A stretch of DNA of 64,000 nt from Marinicella litoralis (GTDB lineage: Bacteria > Pseudomonadota > Gammaproteobacteria > Xanthomonadales > Marinicellaceae), in contig NZ_NIHB01000001.1 in NCBI RefSeq assembly GCF_002591915.1, positions 1,307,590 to 1,371,589 on the forward strand, written 5' to 3'. The translations under genes were made by a program, and so were the position numbers. This document shows positions 14,705 to 18,317 of this stretch, piece by piece. Numbering within the stretch: the stretch's first letter is position 1; the number at the start of each line of letters is the position of its first letter. The notes below the pieces were generated by a model. That model did no database searches, was not told where the DNA came from, and worked only from the letters and a program-made list of their open reading frames with translations.

Positions 14705-16384
14705 TTAAAATAATCCACCTGCTACAGCAGCGCCTGCTGAAGCAACAGCTGTAATTACCAACCACCAAGCTGCAGATGAAGCCGTTTTGCGCGCATGTTC
14801 TGCTTTTATAACGGCTTTGCGCTGAATGATTTTGTATTGTTGTGCAGACTTCTTTTCAATTCGAGCAATCTTGTTGCTTACAAACTGTTTGGCATCTTCA
14901 AAGCTTTGAGTCACTTTATCAATATGTGTTTCGTCTATGTATGGGTTGTTTGTTATCAGTGCTCTAAACGATTGGTTGTCCATTTGATTGATTCTGGATT
15001 TAATGATTTCCAAACTGTCTTTGGGCTGATCCATCATTTTTACAAAATCATTTTTCAAAGCTTCATACCTGAGTTCAGGACGCCCTGTGTTGTTGAAAAA
15101 GTTTTGCACACTTGATTCCACCTTAGCCAGCATTCTGTCTTCATTTTCTTTGTCAAATTCCGCAGCAATCTGATTAACCACATTTTCAATTTTATCCGCA
15201 TATTCATTGATTTTAGCTTGATCTATTGAAGTGTTGTCATTCAGATAGGAAACAATGGATTGACGATTCAATTTTTTGAATTGATTATTGGCTGCATCGA
15301 CAAGGACTTTTGGGTCATTGATGACTGTTGCTAGTTTCTGCTTGAGGTCTTTTTTGTCAAAATCTTCAGGCAACATTTTGCCTAGTTGGGTTTTGAATTC
15401 AGTCATCCTATTGTCAATGTCTGCTTTGTCCAATGCAGAAAAATTGCTGACAATATTTTTTACACCATCCACCGAATCATCACCCTTGTTATAAGCCTCT
15501 TTCATCTGAGCCAACACCAATTTAGCTTGTTTGACTTTTTCCTTGGCCTGGGCAGAGTTTAATTTTGAGTTTTTCTCAATGGCTTTTGATAACACCTTTT
15601 CTATGGCCATCCATTTAACTGGATTGGGCTTAGCGTTTGAGGATTTTGATATGTTTTCAAGATCTGCTTTTAGATCTGAATAATCAGGTATTTTTTGGTC
15701 CACTTTTTTTACAAAGGCATTGATGGTATCTTCAATGGCTGTTGTATCCATTCCATTGACTTCTGTGCGAATGCGGTCCATTGTCGTTTTAATTACTTTG
15801 TCTAACTGCTTTTGCTTGGAAGGTGTGAATAGCGTTTTTACAGCAGAACCTGAAGCTTTAAACCCTGCTGTTGCGGTGCTGATCAAGCCTCCCAATAATG
15901 TGCCAGCAATTTTAGTTTCAAAATAAAACAAAATGATAAAGAACAAGGCCCATATCACCAATGAATTAGCAATCACAGCATCTTTTGTCATAATGCCATT
16001 TAAGTTGAGGGCAATCATCGTGGCCAGGAACAATGCAATAGATGTGGTCAGGACACTCCAGATGCCAAAGCCGCCAGTTACTTTAACGCCAACAGGTGTA
16101 TCAACTTCTGTTAAATGTGTTTCTGTGCTATTTGGTTCACCTGACATAGATAGGCTTTGCGTGGTTTCTGCATATTTCTGTTTGAGATTTCCTAATGTGC
16201 TGACACCAAGTGCAACCGATAAAGCGGTCAATACAAATTGAAAAGCCAGGGATAAAATAACACCTGCAATGACCGTTGGAAAAAAGTTGGCATCAAATAA
16301 ATGGTCGCTGACCACCAGATCTTGTGAGGCCACTCCAAAGCTTAAAGACAATAGAGTGATGCTTGATAAAATAGACTTTTTCAT
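14705..16384 (-). CDS. Membrane protein with a tandem helical-repeat domain, unknown
   Basis: A 559-residue protein. The start at 16384 follows AGGAG and gives a signal-like N-terminus. Hydrophobic segments occur near residues 30-55, 104-125 and 130-152, and the last 25 residues (WWLVITAVASAGAAVAGGLF) form another. Between about 180 and 520 lies a highly charged, Lys/Asp-rich helical region with a loosely repeated unit: FSALDKADIDNRMTEF, DNTSIDQAKINEYADKIE, NNPYIDETHIDKVTQSFED. Each has a short turn then an acidic helix. Similar repeats occur in large bacterial membrane proteins of unknown function. It reads leftward from the 41-bp palindrome, with DUF2383 next and DUF502 divergent. Function unknown; an envelope or stress role is inference. 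Confidence 0.6.
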   Translation of the reverse strand: MKKSILSSITLLSLSFGVASQDLVVSDHLFDANFFPTVIAGVILSLAFQFVLTALSVALGVSTLGNLKQKYAETTQSLSMSGEPNSTETHLTEVDTPVGVKVTGGFGIWSVLTTSIALFLATMIALNLNGIMTKDAVIANSLVIWALFFIILFYFETKIAGTLLGGLISTATAGFKASGSAVKTLFTPSKQKQLDKVIKTTMDRIRTEVNGMDTTAIEDTINAFVKKVDQKIPDYSDLKADLENISKSSNAKPNPVKWMAIEKVLSKAIEKNSKLNSAQAKEKVKQAKLVLAQMKEAYNKGDDSVDGVKNIVSNFSALDKADIDNRMTEFKTQLGKMLPEDFDKKDLKQKLATVINDPKVLVDAANNQFKKLNRQSIVSYLNDNTSIDQAKINEYADKIENVVNQIAAEFDKENEDRMLAKVESSVQNFFNNTGRPELRYEALKNDFVKMMDQPKDSLEIIKSRINQMDNQSFRALITNNPYIDETHIDKVTQSFEDAKQFVSNKIARIEKKSAQQYKIIQRKAVIKAEHARKTASSAAWWLVITAVASAGAAVAGGLF

Positions 16385-16425
16385 AAACGACTCCTGTTGA
16401 TTAAGAGCCATTTAATTTAATGATT

Positions 16426-16466
16426 TGACGTGATCATCATGTGAATTTCACATGATGATCACGTCA
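16426..16466. repeat. Perfect 41-bp palindrome (probable operator)
   Basis: The left arm TGACGTGATCATCATGTGAA (16426-16445) is exactly repeated in reverse complement at 16447-16466 around a single central T. It lies 41 bases before the start of the helical-repeat protein gene and about 110 bases before DUF502, in their shared divergent promoter region. The inner TGTGA/TCACA halves are only 3 bases apart, so it is not a normal CRP site. A dimeric or tetrameric regulator site is the likeliest reading; a cruciform is possible. Confidence 0.75.
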
Positions 16467-16577
16467 TTTTACGAAAAATTTAAAACAAAATGTGAATGTT
16501 GAAAACGGTCACAGATACCACTTGTCTCAGATGTGGCTGAATTTCATGCGGTGTAAATTTTTTAAGCAACGGATTCA

Positions 16578-17183
16578 ATGATGAAAAATGAAATATTAAA
16601 ACCAGTTATCAAAGGAGCGCTTTTGCTGTTTCCAATCATCATTACTGTTTGGTTGGTTTGGACCTTGGTTATATGGATTGATGATTTAGGACGCAAAACA
16701 TTGAAACCCTTTTTATTGGATCATTTGATATTTCCAGGAAGTGGTTTAATCATCGTTTTTCTTATTTTGTTTTTAATCGGATTGCTGTTTCAATTCAGTA
16801 TTTTTAAATTATTTTTTACCCAGGTGGAGAAAAATTTTCTTAAATTTCCGTTGGTCAACACTTTATACAGCAGCATCAAAGACCTGGCAAACATGTTTGA
16901 AAACAAGAATGACCAAGATAAACAAGTGGTCTTGGTGAATCTAGAATCAATGGGGTTGGGCAATGTAATTGGCATTATTACCAATCAAAAAATGCAGGCC
17001 TTTGATCAATCCATTCAATCAAATGATGATCATTTGATGGCTGTTTATTTACCAATGAGCTACATGGTTGGGGGGTTCACCATAGTGATTGAAAAAAGTA
17101 AATTAATCGAAGTTGAGATGACCTTTGAGGAAGCCATGCGCTTTGCATTAACTGCAGGCGTCTCACAAAGTACAAGCAATTAA
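16578..17183 (+). CDS. DUF502 family inner-membrane protein
   Basis: A 201-residue protein with two transmembrane segments (about 13-33 and 55-77) and a C-terminal cytosolic or periplasmic domain. The signatures GALLLFPIIITVWLVW, FPLVNTLYSSIKDL and the late VYLPMSYMVGGFTIVI are typical of DUF502. Family members are widespread in bacteria and related plant proteins act in membrane trafficking; the bacterial role is unknown. It is divergent from the helical-repeat membrane protein and shares the 41-bp palindrome upstream. It starts with two consecutive ATG codons; the first is used here. Confidence 0.85.
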   Translation: MMKNEILKPVIKGALLLFPIIITVWLVWTLVIWIDDLGRKTLKPFLLDHLIFPGSGLIIVFLILFLIGLLFQFSIFKLFFTQVEKNFLKFPLVNTLYSSIKDLANMFENKNDQDKQVVLVNLESMGLGNVIGIITNQKMQAFDQSIQSNDDHLMAVYLPMSYMVGGFTIVIEKSKLIEVEMTFEEAMRFALTAGVSQSTSN

Positions 17184-17358: not shown

Positions 17359-17889
17359 TTACTGTTTTGCTTGCGCTTTGAATTTATATGACAAATAAGG
17401 CATAAAGCAAAAAATAAAGGCCATTGAACTGATCAATGTCAATGCAAACAATGGGTAATACATAAAGGCATAATATGATTTGCTCAGGTACATCAGTAAC
17501 ATAAAAACAAGCATAATCAAGAATGAATACAAGGCGCCTTTGCCTAAATTGACTGTGAAGTCTTGGTACTTACCTTCTTCAATTTCATTACCCGAATATA
17601 TTGGAGGCGTTCCTTTGGGCGCAGCAAAAATATGAATTTGTTGGCCTGAGGAAGTAATGTGTCGCCAACCTGCTGATTTAAAAATGTCAAAATAATCACT
17701 GTCTGGAGTGGCTTGAAAGTCAATGGTATAGATGAGGTCTTGAGCAGGGCCTTGTACCAATTTGTAACAAAATCCGCCCCAAGCCAACCCTTCCAGCAAC
17801 CATCCTTCTGCAGCCAGTTTTTCCAGTTTCTTGATGTCTTTTTTTTCTGAAAAAGCCAGTCCGCCGTTCATTATGTATTTAGTTTTCAT
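17359..17889 (-). CDS. DUF2812 domain membrane protein
   Basis: A 176-residue protein. The first 100 residues (AEGWLLEGLAWGGFCYKL, DYFDIFKSAGWRHI) match DUF2812, and two transmembrane segments follow (about 119-137 and 142-163). Such proteins usually sit beside PadR-type regulators, as here: the gene overlaps the PadR gene by 11 bases, with AGGAGAT before its ATG. The pair is probably regulated by PadR at the operator array at 18256-18317. A sensing or envelope role is likely but the function is not known. Confidence 0.85.
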   Translation of the reverse strand: MKTKYIMNGGLAFSEKKDIKKLEKLAAEGWLLEGLAWGGFCYKLVQGPAQDLIYTIDFQATPDSDYFDIFKSAGWRHITSSGQQIHIFAAPKGTPPIYSGNEIEEGKYQDFTVNLGKGALYSFLIMLVFMLLMYLSKSYYAFMYYPLFALTLISSMAFIFCFMPYLSYKFKAQAKQ

Positions 17890-18226
17890 GCTTATCTCCT
17901 GTGGATTGTTTTATTTGATTTTCTGCAAATGCAATCATTCGTTGTTTTCTGTTGATGTCTTGTTGAAGGATGTTTTTACCTTTTTTTGTAATTAGATAGA
18001 TTTTGGTGGTTTCATCATCGGTTTTGCTTCTTTGAATTAACCCTGAATCGAGCAATTTTTTCAGTGTTGTATAAAGCGAAGCAGGTCCAATTATTGCAGA
18101 TCCATCAGTCGCCTCCTCTATGGTTTTCATAATAAGATACCCATGCATTTCTTCAAGCAAAGTGGATAAAATATAAAATGCCGAATCATTCAAAATACCG
18201 GTTTCTAATGCACTTTTTCTGGCCAT
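17879..18226 (-). CDS. PadR-family transcriptional regulator
   Basis: A 115-residue winged-helix protein: SAFYILSTLLEEMHGYLIMK, GPASLYTTLKKLLDSGLIQ and YLITKKGKNILQQD are classical PadR features (helix 1, recognition helix, wing), with a C-terminal dimerisation helix. PadR proteins are mostly repressors that respond to small molecules or envelope stress. AAGGA precedes the ATG. It is the first gene of the pair with DUF2812 and its promoter holds three 17-bp sites, so autorepression is strongly suggested. Confidence 0.9.
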   Translation of the reverse strand: MARKSALETGILNDSAFYILSTLLEEMHGYLIMKTIEEATDGSAIIGPASLYTTLKKLLDSGLIQRSKTDDETTKIYLITKKGKNILQQDINRKQRMIAFAENQIKQSTGDKHEN

Positions 18227-18255: not shown

Positions 18256-18317
18256 GTATCATTCAATAATATATCATTTAACGATATAAGTAAAGCTAAT
18301 ATATCATTGAATGATAT
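18256..18317. promoter_or_regulatory. Three PadR-type operator sites
   Basis: Three 17-base sites fit the consensus ATATCATTNAATGATAT: site A GTATCATTCAATAATAT (18256-18272), site B ATATCATTTAACGATAT (18271-18287) and site C ATATCATTGAATGATAT (18301-18317), which is a perfect palindrome. Their starts are spaced 15 and 30 bases apart. A covers the -10, B fills the promoter spacer and C lies just upstream of the -35. Assignment to the adjacent PadR is by position. Confidence 0.75.
18266..18294 (-). promoter_or_regulatory. Promoter of the PadR-DUF2812 operon
   Basis: On the minus strand TTTACT (-35, 18289-18294) and TATTAT (-10, 18266-18271) are separated by exactly 17 bases, 40 bases upstream of the PadR ATG. 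It is embedded in the PadR operator array. Confidence 0.7.

Follow-up and report, generated by a model that had tools for sequence, protein, structure and literature searches.

A perfect 41-bp palindrome lies between two divergent membrane protein genes in the stretch of 64,000 nucleotides from Marinicella litoralis analyzed here (the window). It is most suitably classed as an orphan, operator-like element, ordinary in kind and unusual only for its perfection. Our tentative reading is an operator that is local and specific to this lineage, placed over the leftward promoter and perhaps occupied by an oligomeric regulator on one helix face. Since the palindrome has a single copy in the genome and none in known relatives, it is most likely either a young local control site or the product of a recent copying accident.

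Sequence, position and rarity of the palindrome

The palindrome, TGACGTGATCATCATGTGAA-T-TTCACATGATGATCACGTCA, occupies positions 16426–16466 (no strand assigned). Its arms (16426–16445 and 16447–16466) match at 20 of 20 positions around a single central T at 16446, exactly as the initial annotation had claimed. The setting described there was borne out as well: the palindrome is located between outward-facing genes for membrane proteins, a leftward gene for a 559-aa protein, whose start at 16384 is 41 bp away, and a rightward DUF502 gene at a distance of 111 bp. The symmetry ends abruptly, with T/T in each of the next two flanking pairs.

For the composition of the window, 3.8e-5 inverted repeats with perfect 20-bp arms and a loop of 0–8 bases are expected per 3.35-Mb genome, and the palindrome is therefore far too perfect for a chance occurrence. 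In a census of inverted repeats covering 1.31 of the 3.35 Mb of the genome, it was the longest perfect one and the only one with arms above 18 bp and a loop of at most 8. The runners-up had perfect arms of 13–18 bp and were mostly terminator-like, with A/T runs at their ends. When 20-bp arms with a loop of at most 4 were counted by mismatches in the same 1.31 Mb, the palindrome was the only repeat without mismatch. The counts at one, two, three and four mismatches were 0, 1, 4 and 19, respectively, with many terminator-like repeats among them.

An internal order, which is absent from the initial annotation, appears when the palindrome is read as TGACGTGA-tca-TCATGTGA-att-TCACATGA-tga-TCACGTCA. 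Judged by sequence and 11-bp self-similarity, this gives four 8-bp near-dyads at an exact 11-bp step, again with no strand assigned: box 1 (TGACGTGA, 16426–16433), box 2 (TCATGTGA, 16437–16444), box 3 (TCACATGA, 16448–16455) and box 4 (TCACGTCA, 16459–16466). Compared with itself shifted by 11, the palindrome is identical at 18 of 30 bases. Random palindromes built from the window sequence equal this similarity in 0.26% of cases at shift 11 (p = 0.0026) and in 2.4% over shifts 6–15 (p = 0.024). As a post hoc observation, marginal after correction, the 11-bp internal repeat is suggestive and no proof.

Adjacent boxes without mismatch have no further occurrence anywhere in the genome. Allowing one mismatch yielded six additional two-box sites, which look like chance: three fall within clear genes, one lies in an open frame of great length, one spans a start codon and one is located in the gap of a divergent gene pair. 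Genus-wide, the three-box pattern gave four further matches at three mismatches (two genic, a third intergenic and the fourth at a start codon); these have no gene in common and were taken as chance rather than as related sites. A distant look-alike of the outer half of the palindrome, TGATGTGATGATCATATCC, was observed between divergent genes at locus L110 (G000:C1:1211698-1211716).

Flanking genes and the leader of the leftward gene

The leftward gene (14705–16384, minus strand) encodes a 559-aa membrane protein of unknown family, for which neither a Pfam family nor a credible NCBIfam match was found. Its start was re-set from the listed position 16411 to 16384, because an AGGAG followed by an ATG is present there and three relatives match from that start. 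Among 300 genomes of the order, the protein was found in only four, each of which belongs to the genus. In G001, G002 and G012 the gene has another location, two genes from a uppP-like gene. A promoter-like element, GTTAAGGTTTGTTTTACATCATATTAACC, stands upstream of the orthologues (L091, L095, L093) in G001, slightly changed in G002 and in a looser form in G012; it was not seen before the 559-aa gene of the window.

The rightward gene (16578–17183, plus strand) encodes a DUF502 membrane protein and is a second copy in this genome. The other copy (G000:C1:856218-856817) is found near ettA, its usual place in most relatives. The DUF502 of the window scores up to 62% against the ettA-side copies of several relatives, compared with 49% against its own paralogue. 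Pairing of the 559-aa gene with DUF502 was seen in one of 18 genus genomes, the window's own. Since most relatives keep DUF502 near ettA, and G001, G002 and G012 carry the 559-aa gene elsewhere, the divergent pair is private to this genome among those compared. According to the initial annotation, no regulator lies beside the palindrome. This is correct for the immediate neighbors, but a PadR-family gene is located 1.4 kb off, at 17879–18226.

Two candidate promoters, both weak consensus matches with a long spacing, point leftward (minus strand). The first, TTCACA-N19-TTAAAT (16415–16445), has its first hexamer within the palindrome, while the second, TTCACA-N19-TAAAAT (16466–16496), is situated directly upstream of it. 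No leftward promoter with a 16–18 bp spacing was found at 16415–16445, and consensus matches with a 19-bp spacer were the best that the region offered. Besides these elements, the leader of the 559-aa gene can form a 12-pair hairpin (16384–16414, minus strand), not mentioned in the initial annotation, which encloses the ribosome-binding site. The hairpin pairs the AGGAG and has a predicted energy of −11.7 kcal/mol (z −4.7); hairpins of equal strength occur in 7 of 207 leaders from this genome. Some stem of different sequence occupies the same place before the start in two of the three orthologues (G002 and G012).

Known kinds of sites and search for counterparts

The initial annotation had also excluded a CRP site, and its description of the center as TGTGA-N3-TCACA was correct. 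Since this is not TGTGA-N6-TCACA, a CRP-type operator was rejected; the spacing is wrong both at 16440 (N3) and at 16491 (N13). Long palindromic operators serve dimeric or tetrameric repressors of the TetR type and similar proteins. Like these operators, the palindrome is an intergenic inverted repeat at the promoter of divergent genes; in contrast to them, its perfect arms are longer, no regulator gene adjoins it, and no further site was found in the genome. Tandem operators are the targets of ribbon-helix-helix repressors (Arc and MetJ, for example), with contiguous 8-bp boxes in the case of MetJ. The palindrome may resemble such operators through its regularly repeated short near-dyads (boxes of 8 bp, one every 11 bp), but both the sequence of the boxes and their step differ from those of MetJ. 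A literature search for tandem 11-bp operators or for counts of long bacterial palindromes yielded nothing useful.

In PadR-type operators, ATGT and ACAT form an inverted repeat around a linker of 8 nt, although the spacing can vary from one PadR protein to another (PMC5050560). The center of the palindrome, ATGT-N7-ACAT, is similar and a PadR gene lies 1.4 kb off, but the spacing is one base short of the consensus ATGT-N8-ACAT and the dyads in the nearby PadR promoter represent another motif. Thus, a PadR target was rejected, although binding of a PadR protein is conceivable given the variable spacing. Those dyads, TATCATTNAATGATA, are found in the promoter of the PadR/DUF2812 genes (18257–18316) with starts at 18257, 18272 and 18302, two of them with one mismatch. 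Elsewhere in the genome, TATCATTNAATGATA has two sites only at one mismatch or less, and judging by sequence the three dyads are likely PadR autoregulatory operators.

Further categories were discarded on simpler grounds. No terminator-like site was found, and the plus strand continues with TTTT only, which speaks against an intrinsic terminator. A REP/MITE sequence or the end of a mobile element was rejected as the palindrome is single-copy. A MerR-type promoter, in which a long spacer holds the dyad, does not fit either, as the center of the palindrome lies outside the 19-bp spacer by inspection. No Rfam family was found for the palindrome region.

The search for the arm sequence in this genome and in relatives, which the initial annotation had proposed as a check, found no second copy of either arm at up to three mismatches in the genome and no counterpart of the palindrome in the 17 other genomes of the genus. 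The 19-bp center has only three-mismatch matches in the genus outside the palindrome site. Upstream of three orthologues of the 559-aa gene and 13 DUF502 relatives (own paralogue included), no comparable inverted repeat was found; the best inverted-repeat scores in these regions were 5–10, compared with 20 for the palindrome. A scan of GTDB genomes for the 20 innermost bases returned 13 matches with flanks unlike those of the palindrome, several of which (Bacillus group) are mutual copies. Plasmids, phages and viral contigs (IMG/VR) contained no relatives beyond chance; in these scans, as in that of GTDB, records of the window's own genome were possibly excluded. An operator with a regulon is therefore not supported, since no further site was found at up to three mismatches per arm and the single-mismatch two-box sites are mostly genic. 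A conserved cis-regulatory site is not supported either, because nothing comparable was found upstream of the orthologues and the gene order is absent from the other genomes compared.

Operator, copying accident or RNA element

The perfect symmetry, its abrupt end and its restriction to one lineage indicate a recent origin, irrespective of whether the palindrome is an operator, a neutral product or an RNA element. The position of the palindrome and the 11-bp step tip the balance towards an operator. The palindrome would overlap or adjoin the promoter of the 559-aa gene and may contain its −35 hexamer. The 8-bp boxes, which at every 11 bp would face one side of the helix, may be bound by a symmetric protein, probably an oligomer, whose gene lies elsewhere; once bound to the DNA, this protein would block or set the leftward promoter. 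The exact symmetry probably goes back to one arm-copying (template-switch) event, compatible with operator function.

The regulator site in a divergent promoter implied by the initial annotation is thus retained in part. The perfection, the 11-bp repeat and the location in the intergenic region of a divergent gene pair, at 41 bp from where the leftward gene starts, fit an operator. On the other hand, there is one copy without a second site, no counterpart upstream of the relatives of either gene, no dedicated regulator gene adjoining and only weak consensus promoters. In addition, perfect arms of 20 bp exceed what a single dimer requires, which counts against an operator. A more elaborate version, in which an exactly symmetric four-box operator of 11-bp pitch binds a cooperative oligomeric regulator serving this one promoter genome-wide and is coupled to the leader hairpin hiding the ribosome-binding site, appears improbable to us.

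A real, if lesser, possibility is a young neutral palindrome: during replication, the growing strand would have changed template or turned back on itself and copied one 20-nt arm into its reverse complement, leaving an as yet functionless sequence that will decay. That a single template switch can generate a perfect stem is documented, and the palindrome resembles such quasi-palindrome mutations in its perfectly reverse-complementary arms, its single copy and its occurrence in one lineage (PMC8794818). The abrupt end of the symmetry agrees with this explanation, and intergenic DNA tolerates such an event. However, frequent events would be expected to leave a series of slightly decayed palindromes, whereas the 1.31 Mb contain 0, 1 and 4 at one, two and three mismatches, the majority of which look like terminators. 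Since few decayed palindromes of comparable size other than terminators occur there, a steady neutral supply is mildly disfavored, though a single case cannot fix the rate. The 11-bp internal order would also have to be a coincidence. The explanations overlap, as a template-switch origin does not exclude a present function.

It is rather unlikely that the palindrome acts as an RNA element, forming a 19-pair hairpin at the 5′ end of the leftward mRNA, beside the hairpin that hides the ribosome-binding site, and either protecting the message or being cut by a double-strand RNase. The RNA of the palindrome is very stable (−31 to −33 kcal/mol), as is true of any perfect palindrome. The unusually strong 12-pair hairpin (z −4.7, equalled in 7 of 207 leaders) and some stem at its place in two of three orthologues are consistent with such a role. 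However, there is no Rfam family and no terminator T-run, the palindrome is missing from the leaders of the orthologues, and 19 pairs without a G-U pair or mismatch are unlike most evolved RNA stems. An assembly artefact is highly improbable, as the palindrome is far shorter than a usual read and the contig around it spans 1.49 Mb in a genome that is 99.7% complete.

Neither an operator nor a template-switch product would greatly surprise a specialist. If the palindrome is an operator, it offers a handle on the control of an uncharacterized membrane protein so far seen only in this genus. If it is instead a young product of template switching, it would illustrate cleanly how a promoter can gain a perfectly symmetric site in one step, as raw material for regulation.
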